Shown here one piece after another: positions 10,550 to 24,685 of a stretch of 27,452 nucleotides of DNA; position 1 is the stretch's first letter, and every line of letters begins with the position of its first letter. The translations under genes and the position numbers were made by a program. The notes under the pieces are model-generated. The model had not been told where the DNA came from and did not search any database. It saw nothing but the letters and a program-made list of their open reading frames with translations. Source of the stretch: a virus; the IMG/VR virus record IMGVR_UViG_3300009788_000263, positions 1-27,452 of that record; one strand, written 5' to 3'.

Positions 10550-10870
10550 TCAGCCCCGTGCTAATGCCGCCGTAGACACGTCTCTACCAAGTTTATCTAT
10601 CAACCACCGGATGGTGCCGAAGTTCCGCCGGGTGATCGGGTCGGTTATCTGTCCGCCGCAGGCCTCATGCTCATAGTAGGCCCATAGCGTCCGCCGGTTC
10701 TTCCGGCTCAGCTCCGATAGTCTGCCAACGGCCGGCCGTTGTTCGCCGTATGGGCGCCCTTGGCACTTCGCACACTTCACGCATGGCGGCATTGTACCAG
10801 GCGGCCTCGGGACCTCGACGCCACGGCTGATCTTCCGTTGGCCGGTCTCTTCGTCGATTATCCATGCCAC
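10550..10870 (-). CDS. T part of the tail-assembly chaperone frameshift fusion
   Basis: The visible frame starts at a GTG (10870), but it is open further upstream to the slippery site. The region between encodes LRRGVALLLADPAIASLRCDEC. The product has a CDEC pair in that upstream part, a CVKCAKC cluster and one more Cys (EACGG), a likely zinc-binding C-terminal domain. No ribosome binding site precedes the GTG. The natural product is therefore more likely the -1 frameshift fusion with 10933-11379, about 276 residues in all. It sits between that gene and the tape measure gene, where GT proteins of siphoviruses are found. Confidence 0.8.
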   Translation of the reverse strand: MAWIIDEETGQRKISRGVEVPRPPGTMPPCVKCAKCQGRPYGEQRPAVGRLSELSRKNRRTLWAYYEHEACGGQITDPITRRNFGTIRWLIDKLGRDVSTAALARG

Positions 10871-10932
10871 GCATTCGTCGCACCTCAGCGATGCTATCGC
10901 GGGGTCGGCCAGAAGTAGGGCTACCCCGCGCC

Positions 10933-11379
10933 TTAGTTTTTTGCGTCGTTCTCTTCGCGGACCTCACCCGGCGTCCGGTCGCTCAACGCCGACTCGTATT
11001 CTTCGTCGGCCTTCGTGTCGGTAATATCGTCGGACCACAGCGGATCGATGTCGGTCGCGTCGGTACCGGTAATGATCTTGTACAGTTTGTTGAATAACGC
11101 GACCTTCAGACGGAGGATGGTCTTCTGTGTGATCGGGACGAGCACGCCCTTGCCGTCGCTCAGGTTCCACTCGGTCAGCTTGCCTAGCATCATGTCGGCC
11201 GCTTTGCGGTCGTAGGCCTGGCCGCTCATTTCGTCCGACGCGGCTATCAGGTGGCTGTACTCCTCGGTGAGCATCGGCCGGAACCGAAACCGGAACTCTC
11301 CGTGCAAGCCAATCACCGGCTTGATGTAGCCGGGCTCGGTGTAGCCGTCATCCGGTGTGTAGTTTAGGTTGTTTGTCAT
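10933..11379 (-). CDS. Tail assembly chaperone (G-like), 148 aa
   Basis: Small helical protein just upstream of the tape measure gene. It begins with a short beta segment, then FRFRFRPMLTEEYSHLIAAS and helices ending in an acidic tail TPGEVREENDAKN. Chaperones of this type bind the tape measure protein and recruit tail tube subunits. The last codons are GCA AAA AAC TAA, which contain the -1 slippery heptamer that fuses a minority of product to the T frame. Its ATG overlaps the sulfotransferase stop as ATGA. Confidence 0.85.
   Translation of the reverse strand: MTNNLNYTPDDGYTEPGYIKPVIGLHGEFRFRFRPMLTEEYSHLIAASDEMSGQAYDRKAADMMLGKLTEWNLSDGKGVLVPITQKTILRLKVALFNKLYKIITGTDATDIDPLWSDDITDTKADEEYESALSDRTPGEVREENDAKN
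10936..10942 (-). other. Programmed -1 ribosomal frameshift site A_AAA_AAC
   Basis: Read on the minus strand, the zero frame is GCA AAA AAC TAA, so A AAA AAC fits the X XXY YYZ rule, with a stop directly after. A slip of one base gives AAA AAA CTA AGG CGC and continues without stop to the end of the T frame at 10550. The fusion would be about 276 residues (831 nt translated). Downstream sequence is GC-rich and could form a stimulatory structure. This is the expected place for the frameshift that makes G and GT tail chaperones in many tailed phages. Confidence 0.9.
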
Positions 11380-12017
11380 AAGGGCGATTCCTGAAAGGTA
11401 TAGTGAAACATGTCTATCTCTTCGGCGAATCGGACGGCGACCCGCCGGGCTAACGCATCGGTATAGTAGGTGCTGTAGTGGTCGTGGTTGCTGGCGTTGT
11501 GGTGTGGCAGCGGGGCGTCTATCCCGAGTTCCCCGCAGACGGTTCTCCAGTCGGCTTCCAGGTTCTCGAAGCGACCCACGAAGTCGGGTAGCCAGCGGTC
11601 GCCCCAGCGGAGCCAGTCGAGTTGGCGGTTGGCCTTGGAGTGGCCCTGCTCATTGTATGCGCCAATCGGGTCGATCGCCCCGCGCGTAACCATGCGGATG
11701 TAATTGCGGAAGCCGTCGGGGTTGAGGTTTCGCTTCTGGGATTCGTAATGGAACAAAGAGACCAGCCGGTCCCACGGATTGCGGACGAAGGCGAAGGTAA
11801 AGGCACCGGTAAGCGGGCAGAAAACCCGGCACCGCCCCGCCTCGATGAGAGTCCCGACGTGGCAATGTCCCCACGTTGTGAACCGTGGTTCCGGCTGGTA
11901 TTGGTCGATATGGTTCGGATAACAAAGCTCCTGATAGGTTTCACCGCTGGCCTTTATCGCGGCCCAGATGCTCGATCCGGCGGTCTTAGGCACCCAGAGG
12001 AAAAGGGCTCGCGTCAC
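11376..12017 (-). CDS. PAPS-dependent sulfotransferase, 213 aa
   Basis: Residues 9-17 (VPKTAGSSI) match the 5'-phosphosulfate binding loop, and 78-87 (FVRNPWDRLVS) the 3'-phosphate binding motif with Arg79 and Ser87. The C-terminal NAS...YYTDALARRVAVRFAEEIDMFHYTF pattern is typical of Sulfotransfer_2-type carbohydrate sulfotransferases. It would transfer sulfate from PAPS to a sugar or other hydroxyl acceptor. It interrupts the tail genes: GTG start overlaps the tail tube stop (GTGA) and its stop overlaps the chaperone start (ATGA), so it is coexpressed with virion proteins. No membrane anchor or signal peptide is seen, so it acts in the cytoplasm. Target is unknown. Confidence 0.9.
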   Translation of the reverse strand: MTRALFLWVPKTAGSSIWAAIKASGETYQELCYPNHIDQYQPEPRFTTWGHCHVGTLIEAGRCRVFCPLTGAFTFAFVRNPWDRLVSLFHYESQKRNLNPDGFRNYIRMVTRGAIDPIGAYNEQGHSKANRQLDWLRWGDRWLPDFVGRFENLEADWRTVCGELGIDAPLPHHNASNHDHYSTYYTDALARRVAVRFAEEIDMFHYTFQESPL

Positions 12018-12889
12018 GGGCCGACTACCACCTGGGCTTCGCCCGTGGTGGCGGCGTCCTTGTAGGCCGTCAGGTTGATCGGGATGGTGATTTCAGAACG
12101 GCCGCCGGTTGCCGGCGTCTCGGCACCGCCGGCAACCTTTGTCATGGTGATCTCGTGCGTATTGGTCCCGTCGCCTATCACCAACACGGCTTCCACGCCG
12201 GCAACGTTTCCGTCTATAAGCGCCTTATTTGTGGCATTGTAGGGGAGGGTTGCCGAAAGCGTTACCCGGCGATCGGTAGCCACTGCCTCCGGTATCGTCA
12301 GGCCCATTAGGAACCGGCCGGACTCGACCGCGTTGTCGACCGTGAACGTATACTCCAGACAAGGGGCGGGATCGACCGCGCCGATGACCAGCGTGGAATT
12401 GCCGTGCGACATCGGCAAGGCGGTCGCCGGTTCGGCGACCGCACCGCCGACCGACTCGTCCAGTGCCACGAAGTCACAGGAGGCCTGTAGCAGGCCGCCT
12501 TGCGAACTCGACAGGGTCAACCGGCTCAACTTGCAGCTTGCGTAGGTGAAGACACTCACCCCACGGTCAATAACGAGGGTGACCACCGGCAGCGGTTCTA
12601 CGCCGACTCCAGTGCCGATCCCGGCCGCAAACCACAAGTAGACGAGTTCCGCTGACGTCGGCTCCAAGACAATCGTCCCTTCCACCGTGTGCGGACCTAC
12701 CGCGAGGTCATCTATATCGCGGCCCCTAACTCCGCGCAGCCCTTGTCTCTCCAGGAGGACCTGCCGCTTGGCAAGTGTCTCACTGACGACCGGCATGGGC
12801 AATGCCGTATTGACAGGCGCCCCACCCGCCGTAATGACCATTGACATGTGGGTCTTATGCCCCATAGTCGCTTCAAAAGAGTCTGCCAT
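12014..12889 (-). CDS. Major tail tube protein, 291 aa
   Basis: Beta-rich, with the layout of a tail tube subunit: an N-terminal arm (THMSMVITAGGAPVN), strands with LSRLTLSSSQGGLLQASCDFVALDE, and a C-terminal GRSEITIPINLTAYKD segment. The middle (about 60-180) forms one domain, and 190-291 may form a second Ig-like domain exposed on the tube. It lies between the tail terminator and the chaperones as expected. AAAGG is 8 nt upstream of the ATG. Confidence 0.8.
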   Translation of the reverse strand: MADSFEATMGHKTHMSMVITAGGAPVNTALPMPVVSETLAKRQVLLERQGLRGVRGRDIDDLAVGPHTVEGTIVLEPTSAELVYLWFAAGIGTGVGVEPLPVVTLVIDRGVSVFTYASCKLSRLTLSSSQGGLLQASCDFVALDESVGGAVAEPATALPMSHGNSTLVIGAVDPAPCLEYTFTVDNAVESGRFLMGLTIPEAVATDRRVTLSATLPYNATNKALIDGNVAGVEAVLVIGDGTNTHEITMTKVAGGAETPATGGRSEITIPINLTAYKDAATTGEAQVVVGP

Positions 12890-12904
12890 GATTTGGCCTT
12901 TCCG

Positions 12905-13678
12905 TTATGTTAGGCCACGGGTTTCGCGGCTGGTGAATCGTATCAGTAGGGCGGACGCGAACAGGTTGGCGTGCCACGCACTTGGGATAACGACGTCGGC
13001 CGGCTCGACGACCGCGTTATAAACCGTGGCGACGGCCGACAGCCCTTGGCTGCGGAACGCCATGGCTATCCGTTGCCGCCACAGTGTGAACGTGTCGATA
13101 TCGGCGGCCAGCGTCTTCTCTTGGTTGTCCTTGCCGACGGTAGTGACCAGGACGCCGTAGAGAACGTCGTCAAACGAGGTTACACCGGCCGTCGGCGGCA
13201 TTATCTCGCGTACCGGCGTAATCAGAACGCAGGGCAGCGCGACCACGGGGTTGGCGGTCTCCGGGTCGAACGCCCGTTCTAGCGGCAGCTTCTTGACAAC
13301 CACGCTGTCGTTATCCAGGCCGGCCAGCGTCAGCGACTGGATAACGGCTTGGACCGCTACAAGTATCTGGTAATGCGTCGACTCGTCGCCTGTGGTCACG
13401 ACGAAATAGACGACCGTCGAGATGGCGGACTCAGTCGGACTATCCTTGTCATCCTCGGCCAAGCAGTAGGCGAAGTAATGGCCCGCGGTCAGGGACAGAT
13501 CAACGGTCCCGTCGCCCTCGCGGTCACCGCTGTTTGTCCAGGTGCCGGTGCCAAGCGCTCCGTTAAATGCCATTGTGAAGATGGTATGGTCCGACTCAGC
13601 GTCACCATCCGCGACGGTCGCCGTGGCTCCGGTGCCGTCGGCTTGGTCTGCTACCGTTAGTGTTGGTGTTGCTACCAC
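12905..13678 (-). CDS. Tail terminator-like protein with extra N-terminal Ig-like domain, 257 aa
   Basis: Residues from about 105 to 257 (YQILVAVQAVIQSLTL..., LPCVLITPVREIMPP, DVLYGVLVTTVGKDNQ, TLWRQRIAMAFRSQ) follow the alpha/beta order of tail terminator proteins that end tail tube growth. The first 100 residues are Thr/Gly/Asp-rich beta strands (TLTVADQADGTGATATVADG, YFAYCLAEDD), similar to a fibronectin or Ig-like domain. A terminator is usually about 130-160 residues, so this appears to be a fusion. Position before the tail tube gene supports the call. Confidence 0.65.
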   Translation of the reverse strand: MVATPTLTVADQADGTGATATVADGDAESDHTIFTMAFNGALGTGTWTNSGDREGDGTVDLSLTAGHYFAYCLAEDDKDSPTESAISTVVYFVVTTGDESTHYQILVAVQAVIQSLTLAGLDNDSVVVKKLPLERAFDPETANPVVALPCVLITPVREIMPPTAGVTSFDDVLYGVLVTTVGKDNQEKTLAADIDTFTLWRQRIAMAFRSQGLSAVATVYNAVVEPADVVIPSAWHANLFASALLIRFTSRETRGLT

Positions 13679-13679
13679 G

Positions 13680-14117
13680 CTACCCCTCTACTTGGCTGAC
13701 CGCGTGTTTGGCGATCACGTCGCCGCACGCCCCGATGGTTACGTCGGACATCGCCAGATATTCACGCTGGGCGATGTTACCTTCCGGAAAGCCGAACTGG
13801 TGAACGCCGGCGTATGGAACCACGTCTTTGTCGACGCCCACTTTGAGCGTTTGCCCATCGATCACCTCGTTGATCTGGCCGAGCGTTGCGGCCAACTTCA
13901 GCGTGCCTTCCAGGATCAACAGCGGGTGGGTTGGGCCCGGGTCCTTTCGGGCAGGCCACGCCTCTCCGGCAGCGGTGCGGGATTCGTCGAAATGCTCTTC
14001 TATGCCTTTCAAGATGAGCGGCGCGCATTCCTGCAACGCGGCCGTCATATCCTGCCCGAACGCGGCGGCCAGCGTGTTGAAATCGGCGGCGAACTCTTCT
14101 GCGGTTTGGCGGGGCAT
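13680..14117 (-). CDS. Virion morphogenesis / tail completion protein (Mu gpG-like), 145 aa
   Basis: Contains GEAWPARKDPGPTHPLLILEGTLKLA, which matches the W-P...PLL..G.L segment of the Mu gpG-type tail completion family, followed by a beta-rich C-terminal half (VVPYAGVHQFGFPEGNIAQREYLA). The start chosen is the ATG at 14117, which overlaps the previous stop by one base (TGATG). A much longer frame from 14273 overlaps the previous gene and lacks support. It lies where neck or tail-completion proteins usually lie. Confidence 0.75.
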   Translation of the reverse strand: MPRQTAEEFAADFNTLAAAFGQDMTAALQECAPLILKGIEEHFDESRTAAGEAWPARKDPGPTHPLLILEGTLKLAATLGQINEVIDGQTLKVGVDKDVVPYAGVHQFGFPEGNIAQREYLAMSDVTIGACGDVIAKHAVSQVEG

Positions 14118-14461
14118 CAGGCATACTTCTGCTGTTCGCACAGGGCACGGTGGAATATCGAGGTCGTGCCGTGCCGGGTTTCCGTCAATGACTTTACAGT
14201 CCAGACCTTCGACTCGCTGTCCGTGATGCTGTCGCCCTTGTCTGGTACCATACCTTCGAGCGTAGCCGACCATACTCGCCAGACCTTGACGTTCGGCTGT
14301 AGCCCGAGCTGTCCAGCAAGCGAAGTCTCGCGCTTATCGAGGGCCTGCGTGTCCGCCTTGACGGTAGCGACCGACGTCGACGCAGATTCGTCGGTGTAGG
14401 TCACGGTTTGAATCCCGTCGACGTGCAGGTAGTCTTGCTGAAGATCCTCGAATAGCGTCAT
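14117..14461 (-). CDS. Head-tail connector candidate, 114 aa
   Basis: Starts with a helical segment (LFEDLQQDYLHVDGIQTV), then beta strands with VWRVWSATLEGMVPDKGDSI and VWTVKSLTETRHGTTSIF. The compact beta protein with a helix lead-in resembles head closure or stopper proteins. Overlaps the previous gene by 4 nt and the next by 1 nt. Named by position, not by a recognised motif. Confidence 0.6.
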   Translation of the reverse strand: MTLFEDLQQDYLHVDGIQTVTYTDESASTSVATVKADTQALDKRETSLAGQLGLQPNVKVWRVWSATLEGMVPDKGDSITDSESKVWTVKSLTETRHGTTSIFHRALCEQQKYA

Positions 14462-14685
14462 CCGGACACCGCCCTGCTATGGATTTCAAAGGTTCCGCCA
14501 CCGGCGGCGGCAATCCTCTTATCGAGCATTTCCAGTTCCCGGTAGAGCGAGAGCCGGTATTCGGTGTGGTCGATACCGGTCGCCGCGTCATCCGGTTTGC
14601 CGCCGGCAGCGGTACTGTCGATGTCGGCAAGTATCTGCGCGACGGTTTCCCGCCGGGTCCTCAGGTTTTCAAGTACGGTCGCCAT
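14458..14685 (-). CDS. Small helical head-tail joining candidate, 75 aa
   Basis: Two long helices: residues 3-30 (LENLRTRRETVAQILADIDS) and 40-62 (HTEYRLSLYRELEMLDKRIAAA), ending FEIHSRAVSG. The size and helical hairpin resemble gpW-type head-tail joining proteins, which is a tentative comparison. Its stop overlaps the following start as ATGA. Confidence 0.65.
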   Translation of the reverse strand: MATVLENLRTRRETVAQILADIDSTAAGGKPDDAATGIDHTEYRLSLYRELEMLDKRIAAAGGGTFEIHSRAVSG

Positions 14686-14697
14686 GTTATGCTCCCG

Positions 14698-15012
14698 TTA
14701 ATCGACCATGCTGGCCTGGGGGTCCGCCCAGTCGTCCGATCTAAGCACCGGGCGAGCTTCCAAAAACGCTATGACGGCCGACCGAGCGTCTTCAGCCATG
14801 ATGATGTTAGCCTTTTCGGGGTCGCCGGGCTTCTTGACCTTGGCGCAGGTGACGCGGAATTTCTGGAGAGCGGGCACCGGCTCCGGAACTACCGCTTCAG
14901 CGAGCGGCTTGGCTACGTCGTCATCGTCTACGGCAACCGCCTCGGCTGGGGGCGGTCGCTCGGGTTTCGGGGCCGGAACGTGCGGGGCCGGCTGTCGCTT
15001 CTTTCTGGGCAT
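14698..15012 (-). CDS. Hypothetical protein with Pro-rich N-terminus, 104 aa
   Basis: The first 45 residues are Pro/Ala/Lys-rich and probably disordered (RKKRQPAPHVPAPKPERPPP). The rest is a small alpha/beta domain with FRVTCAKVKKPGDPEKANII and SAVIAFLEARPVL. A strong AGGAGG lies 8 nt before the ATG. It lies directly after the capsid gene, where a small capsid accessory or Ig-free decoration protein could sit. No family recognised. Confidence 0.65.
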   Translation of the reverse strand: MPRKKRQPAPHVPAPKPERPPPAEAVAVDDDDVAKPLAEAVVPEPVPALQKFRVTCAKVKKPGDPEKANIIMAEDARSAVIAFLEARPVLRSDDWADPQASMVD

Positions 15013-15051
15013 TAGCTGCCTCCTAAGTTAGGGCTTTCGGACGGGTGTGGG

Positions 15052-16224
15052 TTATTCGCCCGCGTCAGAATGCACCATGAAGTGGGGATCGACAACGGCC
15101 GGCACGCCCTTTTCGGACGCCTTGAACTGGACCACGATATCCCGACTAAACGCCTCGGGGCTATCCGGGCCCTGCTGCGTGATCGTGATCGGCCAGTTCT
15201 CCATGTACCAGAACGCTTTCTTCGGATTGCCGAACCACCATTGAGCGGCGCTTGATGTCCGGGCCTTGATACGCGGGCTAGTGAGCAACTCGTAAGGCGA
15301 GAGCGTGGACGGGCCTATCGTGATCTCGCCGGCCGCGTTCGTGAGGTTCGGCCGCGAGTCGATTCGCTCGGCACCCAAGATTTGCCGGGCTTTGTGCCGC
15401 AGCGCGGACGGGACGATCAAGGTCGTCGGCAGCACGTCGATCGGCTCGGTGTTGTTCGGGTCGGTCATAGCGTCGAACAGCAACTCGGCCTCGTCAATGT
15501 CGCTCCAATCGGCCAGCACTCCGCTGTGTTGATTGACGATCCCGTGCCCGCCGCTGGCCGCATACGTGTTGAAGCTCGACCCCCTTCGCTTGTAGTTGTT
15601 GGTCTCGCCGAGCGCGACGTCAAGAATCCGGTTATCCTTGCTGATGCCCAGAGAGTTGCCGACCTCACCGGCGCGCGTCAGCACCAAGTGGACGTTGTCG
15701 TGAAAGACGGCTTCCTTCGTGACCGGCACGATGTGACCACGCTTTGGGATCACCGGCGTGTCGATCCAGTCTTCCGCGATGCCGGTCGTCGGGTACAGCT
15801 GCGCCTCGTCAACTATTTCGCTGTCGTCACCGAGAGTGCTCATGCCCGGAATCCGCTCGCCGTTGAGCGTGGTGGGCACGGTCGTGACAAGCTGGTCGCC
15901 GATAAAGGCGGGATTGTCGTAGGCGTCCATGATGGCGCTGTACGCCAATTGTCCGAAGATGTTGGAGAAGACCGAGGTATCGACCGCGCTGTTGGCCTCG
16001 GTCAGCACCATGCCGGTCTCGTGCCGGGGGTTGAGGCTCTCGACCCACTCCCGGCCGACCAACTCTTCCGCCAGGCTCCGGAGCGAAAACTGGCCGAGGC
16101 TCAGGTGCCCCTCTTCCAGCGATTCTTGCATGTGTCGGCAGGTGGCCACGGCGCCGTCCGCCCTGTAAAGCCGGCCGATCTCTCGTGCGAGAGATTGCGG
16201 GCTGGTTCGTCGAAATCGTCTCAT
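15052..16224 (-). CDS. Major capsid protein, 390 aa
   Basis: Length, position and sequence style indicate an HK97-fold capsid protein. Helical N-terminal arm (residues 1-60, with ARDIGRLYR-like amphipathic pattern), then VFSNIFGQLAYSAIMDAYDN, VPTTLNGERIPGM, a GHIVPVTKEAVFHDN strand-loop, NSLGISKDNRILDVALGETN spine-type helix, LPTTLIVPSALRHKARQILG, and WWFGNPKKAFWYMENWPITI near the end. The latter resembles the axial domain of Mu gpT-type capsids. The order portal, protease-scaffold, capsid supports the call. A TAGGGG lies 7 nt before the ATG. Confidence 0.88.
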   Translation of the reverse strand: MRRFRRTSPQSLAREIGRLYRADGAVATCRHMQESLEEGHLSLGQFSLRSLAEELVGREWVESLNPRHETGMVLTEANSAVDTSVFSNIFGQLAYSAIMDAYDNPAFIGDQLVTTVPTTLNGERIPGMSTLGDDSEIVDEAQLYPTTGIAEDWIDTPVIPKRGHIVPVTKEAVFHDNVHLVLTRAGEVGNSLGISKDNRILDVALGETNNYKRRGSSFNTYAASGGHGIVNQHSGVLADWSDIDEAELLFDAMTDPNNTEPIDVLPTTLIVPSALRHKARQILGAERIDSRPNLTNAAGEITIGPSTLSPYELLTSPRIKARTSSAAQWWFGNPKKAFWYMENWPITITQQGPDSPEAFSRDIVVQFKASEKGVPAVVDPHFMVHSDAGE

Positions 16225-16284
16225 AGTTTGCCCCTATGTGAATGTCGTGAAATTGTAGGTTGTAGTGTCGCGTTGCTCCGATGG

Positions 16285-17400
16285 TTATCGCATCTGGGAA
16301 CAGCCGATATAGTCGCAGTCGACGATCTCAGCAGCCGCGCTACTGGCTTTGACGCCAACCACGAGGTGCATTTCCGTGGCGCTGGTAAGCGTCTGGATAT
16401 TGCTTCCGATCTGAACTCCGTCGACGAAGAAGTTGACCTGATTGCCGGTGGTGGTGGTCGGCAGGAACTCGATGCGAAGGGTCTGAAACACACCCCCAGT
16501 GGACGCGACCACAGTACTGGCCGTACCGTTGCCGGTTGCCGGAACCTGGGTGCTGCCGACAGAGCTTTCAACGTTCCACACTCGCGTACCAACGTCGGTG
16601 CCCATCTTGAAAATGATGGCGCCGGAGTAGGTGCCCTTAGGGCCATCCTCGTCGTCTTGCATTGCGTCGCCGGCGCCCACGTCGCTCATTAGTCCGAATA
16701 TTACCATGGCGCGATCGTCGTCTGCCTCAGTGATTGCAAGTTTACACTCGGCAACGAACGGCTTGTTAGCCAGGAACTTGAAGCTCTCCCCAGACGAGAA
16801 GAGATAGGCCTCGTCATTGTCCGTCGCCCCGGTCGTTATGCGGCAGATACGCTTGACGCCATCGGTCGTGATAGCGATAGACCCGCCGTCGGTGACGAGA
16901 ACCTGGAAGCCGGGGACCGGGTAGGCGTTAGCGTCCGAGTAGGTCACCACTAGATCGGTAACGCTGATATTGGAGGCCGTGCCCTGGACCACACCCACTT
17001 CGAGGTGGCCGCCCTGAGCAAGGTGCCGCCGCCCGGCAGTCCCGGACGTAAACAGCGAGTCGTATGTGTCAACAGCTGGCCACACCACATCGGTCTGATA
17101 GGTTTTTGTGACCACGCCGATAGTCCCGTCCGTGGTAATCGTCACGGCGCAGGTGTTGCCATTGTTTGGCGCCACGTCGGCGACCGTGGTAGGCAGAATG
17201 CCGACGTCATGAATGTAGATCGACTGCCCGGCAGTCTGGAAGACAACCGAGGCCAAGTTGGCGTTGGCCGCCAGTTCGGCGATTGTGTAGGCGTCGAACA
17301 TCTGCCTCGGCGACTCCTCGAAGAAATCGGTCTCTAGCGTGTACTCTCGACGCCTCTCGATAAAGTCCGGAAGTTGAAGTAGTTTTACCATGTGCCCCAT
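16285..17400 (-). CDS. Beta-rich virion protein with LamG-like C-terminal domain, 371 aa
   Basis: Residues about 5-40 contain MVKLLQLPDFIERRREYTLE and FFEESPRQMFDAYTI. The middle is beta-rich (VAPNNGNTCAVTITTDGT). From about 190 the protein has the pattern of a concanavalin/LamG-like jelly roll (SGESFKFLANKPFVAECKLA, FQTLRIEFLPTTTTGNQVNF FVDGVQIGSN). LamG-type domains are often used for carbohydrate binding. Located between the scaffold and capsid genes, it may be a head decoration or fibre protein. The ATG at 17391 (fourth codon) is an alternative start with a better-spaced AAAGGA. Confidence 0.65.
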   Translation of the reverse strand: MGHMVKLLQLPDFIERRREYTLETDFFEESPRQMFDAYTIAELAANANLASVVFQTAGQSIYIHDVGILPTTVADVAPNNGNTCAVTITTDGTIGVVTKTYQTDVVWPAVDTYDSLFTSGTAGRRHLAQGGHLEVGVVQGTASNISVTDLVVTYSDANAYPVPGFQVLVTDGGSIAITTDGVKRICRITTGATDNDEAYLFSSGESFKFLANKPFVAECKLAITEADDDRAMVIFGLMSDVGAGDAMQDDEDGPKGTYSGAIIFKMGTDVGTRVWNVESSVGSTQVPATGNGTASTVVASTGGVFQTLRIEFLPTTTTGNQVNFFVDGVQIGSNIQTLTSATEMHLVVGVKASSAAAEIVDCDYIGCSQMR

Positions 17401-17429
17401 AGTCCTTTCGTGTAGTGTTGGTCCGACGT

Positions 17430-17999
17430 CTATCGCCGGAAAACCATAAGCGTGTTCTTAAACCAGACCATGGAGGCGGCGGCGCGTAGTTGCGTCTGTG
17501 CCCCATAGTCGCTGGTGTAGCCCAGTTCGTGGAAGATGCCACGGACGTAGCCGTTATCTCGACAGTTGACGTGACCGCAACCGCCCTGCCCCGGAACCGC
17601 CCAACTGATGACGATCCCCAAACGGTTGTGGGTATGTAGGTTGCCGATAAACGCATCCTGAAACTCGGCCGGGATGTGTTCGCCGACTTCCAACGATAGA
17701 ACCCAGTCGGCCGGCTCGACGAGAACCGGGACGGCTAGGTCAAGTACCTCGCATCGGTCGCCCGCTATCAGCGGTGTATGCGGGTTCCCGTCGTAGCCTC
17801 GGGCGTTGGGCCCGATGGCTTCTACGTTGGCACCCAACCCACAGCCGAAGTCAATCACGGTATGACCACCGATGAACTCTATCAGTGCGGAGGCAAGGCC
17901 GCGATCGTCAACGTGACCCTCGCCCGTGCGGGTCTGCCAGCAGCCATGGTTGTTGACATTAGGCATGCAAGCCATCCAGTGATTCAAGGTACTTAGCAT
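17430..17999 (-). CDS. SAM-dependent class I methyltransferase, 189 aa
   Basis: Motif I is clear: VIDFGCGLGANV (residues 48-59), with the acidic D70 at the end of strand 2 and DWVLSLEVGEHIP (98-110) as strand 4 and following helix. Then ISWAVPGQGGCGHVN and a C-terminal helix region. No target-recognition domain of a DNA methyltransferase and no NPPY motif, so a small-molecule, sugar or protein target is more likely. ATG at 17999 overlaps the glycosyltransferase stop by 7 nt. A GTG at 18020 has no better ribosome binding site. Confidence 0.85.
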   Translation of the reverse strand: MLSTLNHWMACMPNVNNHGCWQTRTGEGHVDDRGLASALIEFIGGHTVIDFGCGLGANVEAIGPNARGYDGNPHTPLIAGDRCEVLDLAVPVLVEPADWVLSLEVGEHIPAEFQDAFIGNLHTHNRLGIVISWAVPGQGGCGHVNCRDNGYVRGIFHELGYTSDYGAQTQLRAAASMVWFKNTLMVFRR

Positions 18000-19084
18000 A
18001 CAGCCACCCTGCGGATGCACTCAGGCTGTTCTGGAGGTGGGACATCAGCCGCCAGATGGGCGGTAAACTCTTCGTCTGTCTCGTTGCCCCATTCGCCCGG
18101 GCACGGCCACGGGGCCGCATCGCCCCAGTGGATCAGAGGCACCTTGGTTGTGGCCATGACCTTTGCGCCCCAGTGGGCGAGTTGGCGGGCAAAGAGCCAA
18201 TCCTCGGGGGCAAACCAACTGTGTCTCGCGCCGTCGTCTCCGATTGTCAGGCGCTGACACGTCTCAAAGCATACGTCATTGACCCATGGCTTGCTCAGGT
18301 CAGCGAGCCAGAGGCCGGTATTCATCAGAAGGCACTTGCCCTCAAGCGTCGGGTCCCACTCTACCAACTCGTCAATCCCGAACGTCTCCGGCAGCCGTGG
18401 CCGCTCGGGTTCATCGCTCTCTGACTTGCCAATCGGGCTACCGCTTTCGTCCATTACGATCGGGGCCGCCAGTTCCTTAATCATCAGGCGGCGGTTGTCC
18501 CAAGCATTGTCGGCGTCGCCGACTGCGGTACTGGTTTTGCCGAGTGGGTCTTTTATCGGGGATACCGCCGACATGACATCCGCCCCGGTGCGCCGCATCT
18601 CATCCATCAAGACATCTAACCAGAACACATCTCGCCTGGGTTCGATGTCATCGTGGATCATCGCGAAATGCGAACACGGCCGCTTGCCGGTCTTGGTTGT
18701 CAGAGCCAAGCCCCATAGGCTGTTGAAGTTCTCGCACAACGCGGAAGACACTTTATCAGCCCGGGTGATATCCAGGCCGTTGAGGCTATGGGCTGCCTGG
18801 GTGGCCTTGGCTATCTTCTCGACTTCCCTGGTATCGGGGTCGGTCAGGACCTTGACAATCGGCTGTAGCACGTCAGGCGGCATCGCTTGTCCCATACCCT
18901 CCGGGCCGCACTCACGCAACGCACCGGCGATCTTGATGTCGGCCGGCACCTTGCTCATGAGCACATCGAGTAGCAGCGTCATTCTCCCGGGTTCGGTTGC
19001 TGTCTGGAAGAACGCGCGCGCAACCCCCATGTTCAGCTTGGCGCTGGACCGGGGCATAGCGAGAAACACATGTGGGCGATTCAT
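17993..19084 (-). CDS. GT-A-like glycosyltransferase, 363 aa
   Basis: Residues 140-146 (FAMIHDD) fit the strand leading to a DxD-type metal site, followed at 254-260 by MNTGLWL and at 292-298 by APEDWLF, with 317-321 LIHWG near the end. This order (D-D, acceptor loop, ED motif, late His) is typical of GT-A glycosyltransferases. A helical region at about 35-125 is not usual and may be an insertion. It would transfer a sugar from a nucleotide sugar donor in the cytoplasm. Coupling with the methyltransferase and location inside the head operon point to modification of a virion or host glycan. AAAGGA lies 9 nt before the ATG. Confidence 0.75.
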   Translation of the reverse strand: MNRPHVFLAMPRSSAKLNMGVARAFFQTATEPGRMTLLLDVLMSKVPADIKIAGALRECGPEGMGQAMPPDVLQPIVKVLTDPDTREVEKIAKATQAAHSLNGLDITRADKVSSALCENFNSLWGLALTTKTGKRPCSHFAMIHDDIEPRRDVFWLDVLMDEMRRTGADVMSAVSPIKDPLGKTSTAVGDADNAWDNRRLMIKELAAPIVMDESGSPIGKSESDEPERPRLPETFGIDELVEWDPTLEGKCLLMNTGLWLADLSKPWVNDVCFETCQRLTIGDDGARHSWFAPEDWLFARQLAHWGAKVMATTKVPLIHWGDAAPWPCPGEWGNETDEEFTAHLAADVPPPEQPECIRRVAVC

Positions 19085-19127: not shown

Positions 19128-19697
19128 TCAACCGGTTACGGCAGCCGCAAACGACTTGCCGTCGGTCACGGGTTTGTTGCTTTTCTCCTCGACGGTAGAC
19201 AGCGGCATCGACCGGGGGCGATCGACGCTGCCGGAATCCCTGGGGAACGACTCGATCAGTTGCAGTTGCAGCTTCTCATCGGTCAGGCCGGCCACCGCTG
19301 CCACCCGGAGCGTTGTAGGGGCTCGGCCAGCGGACTCAAGCAAGTTGCGACAGTGTTCACGCCGTCGTAGGTTGGCGTTGTCGCTACGGAGCCGCTGGAA
19401 GCTCTCGGGCGTCGGCTTTTCGGCGGGCGCCGCGTCGGCTGCGGGTTCGGCGGCCGGGGCTTCACCGGAAACAATGGTTACCACCTTGTCTCGGGCTCGC
19501 ATCAGCTCTTTGATTGCCGCCACTACGGCGGCCTCATCAAGGCTCACATCGTCCAGGACGGCCTGTGCGGCAGTTCTGAACGATACTACGATAGCCTCCA
19601 CTGGATCGGCCGGCGGGGCGTCGGTAACCACGTCGGGCGCAACCAGCGGATCCGCGGGTGCGGCCTCGGGCGGCAGTACTGCGTTCTGTTCTGGCAT
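19128..19697 (-). CDS. Nested in-frame scaffold protein, 189 aa
   Basis: The ATG at codon 166 of the protease gene (19697) is preceded by AAGGAG, 9 nt upstream, with no such site at neighbouring Met codons. It would give a scaffold protein MPEQNAVLPPEAAP..., sharing its frame and stop with the protease. This matches the C/Nu3 arrangement in lambda, where scaffold is the C-terminal part of the protease gene and made in excess. The predicted product has a Pro/Ala-rich first half and a helical C-terminus that would bind the capsid protein. Confidence 0.75.
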   Translation of the reverse strand: MPEQNAVLPPEAAPADPLVAPDVVTDAPPADPVEAIVVSFRTAAQAVLDDVSLDEAAVVAAIKELMRARDKVVTIVSGEAPAAEPAADAAPAEKPTPESFQRLRSDNANLRRREHCRNLLESAGRAPTTLRVAAVAGLTDEKLQLQLIESFPRDSGSVDRPRSMPLSTVEEKSNKPVTDGKSFAAAVTG

Positions 19698-20192
19698 CTG
19701 TCTATACTCCTTACTTTCAAAAAGAGAGTCAGTGGTTGCGGGGTCCGTAACCACGTCTACGCTAAAGACTTCGGTTATGTGATTTACCTGGACGACGTCG
19801 CCTTCCTGTTTCGCGTCTCCGATAGCCTCGTGAGAGAGGCCTAGCATTCCTGGACGTCGCCGCGCGGTTTCCACGATCTGATCGGCCAGCCGGCAACTTG
19901 CCAAATAATGCAGGTCAGCCATCAGGCCGGTCGGGTGTTCGCGGACACGTTCCAGCCACCCGAACTGCTCCGCAATCAGGCGGTCCGAATGACTGTCGGG
20001 GCTACGCTGGCGGTGGTCGCAGTTGACCGTCAGGCCCTCGTAGCGAGGGATTGCCTCTCGTAGGCACGCCTCTCCGTAGACGCGGCCGTTGCGCGACTGG
20101 CGGCCGATCACCTTGACGTTGCGGATAACGCAGGCCTCCGTGTCTACCTGAGCGTCGGGGGAACTAGTGGCTTCAAGTAGTTGGATTTGCAT
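19128..20192 (-). CDS. Prohead protease fused to scaffold, 354 aa
   Basis: The N-terminal 160 residues read NGRVYGEACLREAIP, then NCDHRQ with His60 and GLSHEA with Ser120, the expected His and Ser of the phage prohead protease (S78/U35-like) fold. Residues 166-354 are Pro/Ala-rich and then helical (FQRLRSDNANLRRREHCRNL), a scaffold-type region. This protease removes scaffold from the prohead before packaging. The ribosome binding site AGGAGG lies in the last codons of the portal gene. An internal start for the scaffold alone is visible (see nested entry). Confidence 0.88.
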   Translation of the reverse strand: MQIQLLEATSSPDAQVDTEACVIRNVKVIGRQSRNGRVYGEACLREAIPRYEGLTVNCDHRQRSPDSHSDRLIAEQFGWLERVREHPTGLMADLHYLASCRLADQIVETARRRPGMLGLSHEAIGDAKQEGDVVQVNHITEVFSVDVVTDPATTDSLFESKEYRQMPEQNAVLPPEAAPADPLVAPDVVTDAPPADPVEAIVVSFRTAAQAVLDDVSLDEAAVVAAIKELMRARDKVVTIVSGEAPAAEPAADAAPAEKPTPESFQRLRSDNANLRRREHCRNLLESAGRAPTTLRVAAVAGLTDEKLQLQLIESFPRDSGSVDRPRSMPLSTVEEKSNKPVTDGKSFAAAVTG

Positions 20193-22914: not shown

Positions 22915-24189
22915 TCACGCTCCGATCTCTGCCCGCTGGTCTTCTACCCCGTGGTTGAATACGTGTCGCATCTGCCGAACCGCCATCTCCAGGGCGTCAG
23001 GCCCGTCTTCGTGCTTTGCTACCGGGAAGCCTCTAAGCTGTTCGACTAGCAGCCGGGCACCCGGACTTCCGCGTTTGAATCGAATCTGTCCGCGAGACAG
23101 ATACGGAGTAAGTCCGCCTCGAATACGGACCACTTTATTGATGCGGTTATCGATACCGTAGAAGTTGGGAAACACCTTCGCCTTGAGGGACTCTCGCTCA
23201 AAGTCCTTGACGAGCATCTCTTGAAACTGATTGGTCTCGACTCCGAACGCATGGGGCTCGAACTCCCGGGCCAGCCTGATGCCATCTACCACTATCCGGT
23301 GAGTATCACGCTTCGCTATGTCTGCGTCAACCCACATTACCCCGTGTTTGTCCAGCATCATCATGACGAAGGCCGAGTAATCCGACTTCTCAGTGGCCCC
23401 TTTCGACGGGTCCAGCGTGATGACTCGCCACTGTATTTCGGCCTCGGGCGGCCATTGGTCAAACCATATCGAGTCGCCGAAGTAGGCGCCGTCGAACTCC
23501 GCCCCCTCGACGTCGGTGAACTGTGCTTCATGCTCCTGGGCAAACGCCCGGGCCCCCATGTCACGGTAGGCTGCGTCTAGCTCGCTTTGGGGGATCAGTG
23601 GGTTAGCTGACGTCGGCAGCCGGAACCGTGCCCATGTGTCATCTACGGCTGCCGCGTCCCATTGCTCCTTTAGCCAGTTGTAGCCCGCTGGGGTGGTTAG
23701 CATCATCGACCAGCCCTGCTTGTCGGACAACGCCGGCCGAAGCGACTCGACCCATGCCCGTTTGGATATGAAGGCTGCCTCGTCAATTACCAGGCCGTCT
23801 AGGCCCTCACCTCGCAAGCTACCGCGGTCGGGGTTGTCGGCTGATCTGACGCAGACCGAGCCGCCGCCCGGTAGTTCGATCCGATGGTCCTGTTCGCTCT
23901 TCTCCACCCAGGCACCGCAGCAGGCCGTCTTCAGCAGCCGCCAGATAAGTTGCGTGATGGTGAACGTTGGGCCGACCCACCAGATCGTGCCACCGTCCAC
24001 AGCCCCACGCAACGCCCCGGGCTCAGGTCCGTGGCCCTGTACCGTTGCTATTAGACCCGTTGCCGTTTTCCCCACCCGGCGACCCGAGACGACCAGCTTG
24101 TGCCTCGCCGGACTCTGTAAGATCGGTAATTGGTGCGCCATTGCCGCCGGTAGGCAGACGGTTTGCGTTGCCGTAGAAGTTCCGGTCAT
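22915..24189 (-). CDS. terL: Terminase large subunit
   Basis: The 424-residue protein has an ATPase with Walker A SGRRVGKT (residues 35-42), Walker B DGLVIDEA (131-138, Glu137 catalytic), and coupling motif MLTTPAG (163-169). The nuclease domain has Asp260 in VITLDPSKG, Asp270 in DYSAF, Glu318 in GVETN and the acidic HEDGPDALE (393-401). This is the motor that packages DNA into the prohead through the portal. The start at 24189 overlaps the small subunit by about 170 nt. An alternative ATG at 24141 (Met17) leaves 24 residues before Walker A and is equally plausible. Confidence 0.96.
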   Translation of the reverse strand: MTGTSTATQTVCLPAAMAHQLPILQSPARHKLVVSGRRVGKTATGLIATVQGHGPEPGALRGAVDGGTIWWVGPTFTITQLIWRLLKTACCGAWVEKSEQDHRIELPGGGSVCVRSADNPDRGSLRGEGLDGLVIDEAAFISKRAWVESLRPALSDKQGWSMMLTTPAGYNWLKEQWDAAAVDDTWARFRLPTSANPLIPQSELDAAYRDMGARAFAQEHEAQFTDVEGAEFDGAYFGDSIWFDQWPPEAEIQWRVITLDPSKGATEKSDYSAFVMMMLDKHGVMWVDADIAKRDTHRIVVDGIRLAREFEPHAFGVETNQFQEMLVKDFERESLKAKVFPNFYGIDNRINKVVRIRGGLTPYLSRGQIRFKRGSPGARLLVEQLRGFPVAKHEDGPDALEMAVRQMRHVFNHGVEDQRAEIGA

Positions 24190-24493
24190 GCTCGACCACC
24201 ACCTTTATCTCGCTCTTGCCGGTCGTCTCGATTTCCTGCTTGTCGGCCTGCCCGAGGTACTGCTTGCCCATCCAGACACCCATTGTGCGGTCCCCCTTCT
24301 TCAGCATCCGGTATTGCTGCCGGCGAATACTGGCGCAGAACAGTAGCCGCCCCCTTTTAAGGACACCCGCAAAACGCCGCTCAATGGTATCCTCCGAGCA
24401 GTCACACAAGGCCGCTATTTCCGGGGTCGTGCAACCGATCCTCAGCGCCCGCAGGACAAGCTTTGGATCAATGTCTAACTTAGGTCTACCCAT
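24023..24493 (-). CDS. terS: Terminase small subunit
   Basis: 156 residues. An N-terminal helix-turn-helix at about 22-41 ([19 protein letters not shown]) is followed by helices [18 protein letters not shown] and [12 protein letters not shown], the pattern of small terminase subunits that recognise packaging DNA. The C-terminal 55 residues are Gly/Asn/Ser-rich and overlap the terL start region. The start taken is the ATG at 24493, with AAAGG 8 nt upstream; a Met two codons earlier is too close to it. The gene overlaps the end of csrA by 8 nt. Confidence 0.85.
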
Positions 24494-24668
24494 GCCCATC
24501 GCCTTTGCACACGAGCAGTTCGCTGCGGGCTATCGCCACTTCTCGGGGTGCGTCTATTCCGAGGCGAACGGACAAGTGCCCATCGTAGTCACTTATCTTC
24601 ACGATAACTATGGTGATAGTCTCGCCGATGAGGATCCGTTCGTTTACCTTCCTTGTCAATACTAGCAT
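24486..24668 (-). CDS. csrA: CsrA/RsmA-type translational regulator
   Basis: The 60-residue protein matches CsrA end to end: [16 protein letters not shown], then ITIVIVKI, a short loop, [11 protein letters not shown] and [10 protein letters not shown]. Leu4 and Arg6 in beta-1 and Arg48 in beta-5 occupy the positions of the usual RNA-contacting residues. CsrA dimers bind GGA in hairpin loops near ribosome binding sites and repress or stabilise mRNAs. The ATG at 24668 gives the canonical N-terminus; another ATG two codons upstream is directly next to the Shine-Dalgarno. That site, TAGGAAGGA, contains two GGA triplets, so autoregulation is possible. The gene overlaps terS by 8 nt. Confidence 0.93.
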
Positions 24669-24685
24669 GGTCATTCCTTCCTAGG

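Follow-up and report, generated by a model that had tools for sequence, protein, structure and literature searches.

A glycosyltransferase-methyltransferase gene pair beside the capsid genes of a putative planctomycete phage, with a sulfotransferase gene in its tail region

In the literature found, glycosylation of virion proteins by phage-encoded enzymes is described for a few mycobacteriophages. Che8, Corndog and Myrna are reported to glycosylate virion proteins (PMC12363180), the acceptors are the capsid and the tail tube (PMC11600133, PMC12363180; citing Freeman et al. 2023), and cluster O phages carry an O-methyltransferase gene in tandem with three glycosyltransferase genes (PMC11600133). 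The function of phage sulfotransferases is stated as unclear (PMC10580990). The locus analyzed here is similar to the mycobacteriophage systems in encoding a glycosyltransferase (GT) and, as in cluster O, a methyltransferase (MT) in tandem. It differs from them in that the two genes lie inside the head operon next to the major capsid protein (MCP) gene, while the glycosyltransferase genes of Che8 are at the right genome end, and in that a sulfotransferase (ST) gene is present. Two Che8 proteins were rejected as homologs of the GT, gp110 with an hhalign probability of 0.7% and gp109 for lack of sequence homology.

The window, that is, the whole analyzed stretch of 27,452 bases, is an IMG/VR virus record; a sibling contig in IMG/VR, IMGVR_UViG_3300028610_000622 (41,522 bases), is 99.99% identical to it over the region. 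The gene order on the minus strand is TerL (22915-24189), a coiled-coil protein, the portal, the prohead protease (19128-20192; phrog_29592, E 9e-10, and weakly phrog_207), GT (17993-19084, 363 aa), MT (17430-18020, 196 aa, GTG start), a LamG-type protein (16285-17400), MCP (15052-16224; PF25209, E 7.3e-15), head-tail genes, the tail tube protein (12014-12889; PF18906, E 1.4e-23), ST (11376-12017, 213 aa, GTG start), putative tail assembly chaperones (10550-11379) and a TMP-like protein. The three enzyme ORFs are intact, co-directional within this head-to-tail operon and overlap or closely follow their neighbors, in agreement with an earlier note on this DNA. That note had placed GT and MT in tandem between protease and capsid, which holds except that the LamG-type gene separates MT from the MCP gene, and ST between tail tube and chaperones; ST does adjoin the tail tube gene, while the chaperones are assigned by position only. 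The product of 10933-11379, directly downstream of ST, matches no family in Pfam or PHROGs, and its homologs come after the tail tube in ten relatives. No signal peptide was seen on the enzymes when the translations were judged by eye. The GC3 of the three genes (0.70-0.75) is covered by the values of the structural genes (0.68-0.82), so that their composition gives no sign of a recent acquisition.

With the MCP as the anchor, relatives were found at 53 loci in IMG/VR and, at 37-49% identity, in bacterial MAGs, of which 12 are planctomycetes, Pirellulales among them, and one has just "bacterium" as its label. The window virus thus probably belongs to a lineage of tailed phages infecting planctomycete bacteria, the host being suggested by these MAGs. 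The relatives share a plan of portal, minor head protein, protease (syntenic in most of the MCP loci), LamG-type or 155-aa decoration-like protein, MCP, adaptors, tube, chaperone-like genes and TMP. Of 50 MCP clusters, 25 have a LamG-type protein between protease and MCP; where it is missing, the slot holds a 155-aa protein, one of which matches phrog_122, a head decoration family. The LamG-type protein is a candidate capsid decoration protein and, like the MCP and the tail tube, a candidate acceptor.

The GT has no match in Pfam at E<=1, and profile searches of PDB sequences with GT and with ST found nothing. All three enzymes had few or no matches among annotated phages, so IMG/VR was used to collect relatives. 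By structure only, GT can be described as a GT-A-like glycosyltransferase. Its AlphaFold model has an overall pLDDT of 60, with residues 1-98 and 323-363 below 50 and a core (residues 120-200 and 230-320) mostly at 77-96 by ten-residue block. Foldseek puts this core among GT-A enzymes: the top PDB match is the collagen galactosyltransferase COLGALT1 (9evj, E 1.8e-6), others are RmlT, mimivirus R699 and STIV A197, and in BFVD the core matches GT2-like phage proteins (E 4e-8). The TM values are low because the N-terminal third is unmodelled. GT thus shares its core fold with COLGALT1 and the GT2-like phage proteins, but has no detectable sequence relation to any solved structure, and its family, unlike these, is often fused to a methyltransferase domain. 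In an alignment of nine sequences the H-x-D and E-D-W motifs are invariant; the former (residues 144-146) keeps the second Asp and is not a strict DxD, and the latter resembles, and may correspond to, the xED motif that inverting GT2 enzymes carry. Judged from these sequences, GT founds a phage family that has no Pfam model.

To characterize the surroundings of this family, IMG/VR was scanned with the alignment of GT sequences, capsid genes playing no part in the selection, and the best 80 of 98 loci were taken. In these best 80 of 98 loci, 70 of 82 GT copies have an MCP homolog within 3 kb on the same strand, as do 54 of 66 clusters formed at 90% identity. Since short contigs inflate the 3-kb count, the test was redone on contigs of at least 30 kb, where, among the matches listed, GT lies by the MCP gene in 12 of 15 cases against about 2.2 expected (P about 3e-8, approximate because the null model combines random placement with a strand factor of 0.75 that we chose). 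The neighboring capsid types differ: some are window-like, some are protease-MCP fusions and some are HK97-like (phrog_10). The order protease-GT-LamG-MCP is repeated in L092 and L095, but such arrangements do not form one clade in the GT tree; a single origin thus finds no support, and GT genes may have been recruited to this slot repeatedly. The recurrence of GT paired with a methyltransferase by capsid genes of unrelated phages suggests that the virions of many of them may be decorated with modified sugars made by the phage itself. In place of a methyltransferase, five GT relatives located by capsid genes have a SPASM domain, which is radical-SAM associated, as fusion partner (L145:7489-9075, L147:7705-9276, L155:7839-9467, L137:3880-5508 and L164:5826-7613).

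The MT gene overlaps the GT gene by 28 bp. Its product scores below the cut-off of PF13489 (E 6.5e-4, 19.9 bits; cut-off 27), carries motif I as VIDFGCGLG and has relatives that are 42-48% identical, one homolog (L079) being over the cut-off. Score, motif and homologs together point to a class I SAM-dependent methyltransferase. Among the matches listed, a Methyltransf_24-type domain is present on 39 GT ORFs (near-copies included), in some at the N-terminus and in most at the C-terminus, while in L158 the MT family of the window itself is fused C-terminally to GT. Fusions at both ends and with two methyltransferase families indicate that GT-MT fusion arose more than once. In two further loci (L149 and L084) a window-type MT is found upstream and a GT downstream of the MCP gene. 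Given the capsid-gene proximity and the fusions in either order, GT and MT are a recurrent cassette of the head module. In a subclade of planctomycete-type phages, the region from portal to protease also contains a different apparent sugar transferase, to which a PF13489 methyltransferase is joined or next to which it lies downstream (L012:6905-8446, L015:667-2148, L065:6815-8357); by eye this sugar transferase is heptosyltransferase-like and it has no Pfam match.

The ST gene overlaps both the tail tube gene and 10933-11379 by 4 bp. The protein is over the cut-off for PF03567 (Sulfotransfer_2; E 5.7e-8, 33.6 bits, cut-off 22) and matches phrog_3347 (E 2.9e-22). The two PAPS motifs, 5'-PSB (PKTAGSS) and 3'-PB (FVRNPWDRLVS), are kept in the alignment. 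The AlphaFold model has a pLDDT of 81, and the best 50 Foldseek matches in PDB are all sulfotransferases. Family, motifs and predicted fold hence identify ST as a genuine PAPS-type sulfotransferase, which shares motifs, fold and size with the phage sulfotransferases of Sulfotransfer_2 and phrog_3347 and differs from them in its location between tail tube and putative chaperone. Sulfation by a phage enzyme within the tail module had been called rarely described, which is true of the literature found (PMC10580990) but not of occurrence: 204 IMG/VR stretches encode an ST relative. The closest of these are 42-45% identical. In three (L167, L169 and L170) ST lies among genes that are tail-like by size and order, not by family match; the fourth, L168, belongs to the contig of the planctomycete-type phage L069, where ST lies in the tail region near a GT1-family gene. 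In L040, which has a window-type MCP, the portal is flanked by an MT, located between portal and protease, and by a weakly matching ST (PF03567, E 2.6e-4), and in the prophage record MZ188970 an annotated ST lies between terminase and head-completion genes. Other ST relatives occur in replication regions and in glycan regions. In some phage contigs (L174, L184, L173, L175, L176 and L212), a single stretch holds four to eight ST-family ORFs.

With moderate confidence, we interpret GT and MT as a head-module cassette for virion glycosylation, and ST as a glycan-tailoring gene acquired separately. GT would be a cytoplasmic GT-A enzyme that takes a nucleotide-sugar of the host as donor and, at about the time of assembly, places a sugar on a head protein, presumably the capsid or the LamG/decoration protein encoded next to it. 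MT would methylate this sugar or its neighborhood, so that capsid or decoration proteins would bear an O-methylated sugar. ST would take PAPS from the host and sulfate a glycan hydroxyl; a tail protein, or the glycan made by GT and MT, would be the most plausible site. The data show the genes, their families or folds, their positions and the recurrent coupling of GT with MT by capsid genes, from which we infer which proteins are modified, which sugar is donated, in what order the enzymes act and whether ST acts on the virion at all. For GT and MT, action on a head protein is suggested by MCP adjacency, the methyltransferase fusions, the fold similar to COLGALT1, which is a protein glycosyltransferase, and the mycobacteriophage precedent. 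The virion-directed role put forward by the earlier note is in this respect strengthened, the same slot being occupied by GT in other phages.

Alternatively, the enzymes could remodel host surface glycans during infection, for receptor masking or superinfection exclusion, and their place in the operon could mean no more than that they are expressed late; we regard this as rather unlikely. Phage ST genes are often flanked by glycosyltransferases, a nucleotide-sugar epimerase and methyltransferases: when 100 neighbors of phage STs were scanned in PHROGs, those recognized were mainly glycosyltransferases and MT-like proteins of the glycan-cluster type, which counts against a virion role, and the idea that virion genes generally neighbor phage ST was rejected, a place in the tail region seeming to be the less common case. 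One planctomycete genome has an ST-type gene adjoining MT- and GT-like genes, and L171:1-11900 is a phage glycan island in which a window-type MT and an ST overlap and which also holds another MT, another ST and several GT-like genes. However, the close tie of GT to capsid genes across capsid types and the fusions to MT would not be expected from host-glycan remodelling, and no flippase or Gtr-like partner was recognized in a partial scan of the 41.5-kb sibling record.

It is also improbable, slightly more so, that the genes are unrelated morons, with the GT-MT pair acting on one acceptor and ST on a different, non-virion substrate. In its favor are the empty ST slot of the relatives and the absence of a second locus with GT and ST among those fetched, both detailed below, and the ST relatives in replication and glycan regions. 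Twenty five of the 50 MCP clusters show both protease and LamG-type gene, and in only three of these (L091, L092 and L095) is the gap occupied by a GT; L052 has a split protease there and the remaining gaps are 19 to 301 bp. In none of the ten clusters where both tube and chaperone are seen is there an ST between them (gaps of -100 to 288 bp). L010 and L011, closer relatives by MCP (45% and 43%), have none of the three enzymes at these slots. Relatives with homologous LamG-type protein, MCP and tube thus do without the enzymes, which are therefore accessory. Relatives lacking the enzymes while having identical targets had been named in the earlier note as evidence against modification; in those found, the targets are homologous, not identical. 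GT and ST do not occur together at any fetched locus outside this phage, the loci being bounded by flank and contig ends, whereas MT-type genes accompany ST at 14 fetched loci, and GT with MT is recurrent. The search for the same trio in related phages, which had been suggested as a check, yielded no second example among the fetched loci, and the trio was rejected as one module. The GT-MT pair is thus well supported by comparison of genomes and the trio is not; the shared pathway that had been proposed for all three enzymes finds no support in these data. On the other hand, the tail-region ST relatives in three phages, the one with a GT1-family gene in a phage of the same lineage (L168) and the ST and MT on either side of the portal in L040 are not what unrelated morons would lead one to expect.

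Glycosyltransferases of the GT-A type participate in some phage DNA glycosylation, but hypermodification of DNA bases by GT and MT is very improbable and was rejected, as no TET/JBP oxygenase, hydroxymethylase or base kinase was matched among the proteins scanned (part of the 41.5-kb sibling record, which may itself be incomplete), GT has no Pfam match and GT tracks capsid genes.

If virion glycosylation by a head-module cassette is correct, it would be a common trait with a genomic marker, namely the GT family by a capsid gene, often with MT fusions, in dozens of phage lineages, and phage sulfotransferases would gain a concrete hypothesis, the tailoring of a tail or virion glycan. The broadest version, that the virion of this phage bears a glycan which the phage itself assembles, methylates and sulfates, and that the cassette by capsid genes represents a widespread, undescribed virion-glycosylation system in many phage lineages, is doubtful at present.

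The window has several other features, all on the minus strand. A csrA gene (24486-24674; PF02599, E 4.2e-19) lies directly upstream of the terminase genes, and a gene for a pentapeptide-repeat protein (2-550; PF00805, E 1.2e-47) runs off the window end. There are also three small paralogous ORFs (574-825, 1088-1375 and 1365-1637), 33-42% identical and without Pfam match, and a tRNA-Thr (TGT) gene (2120-2192).
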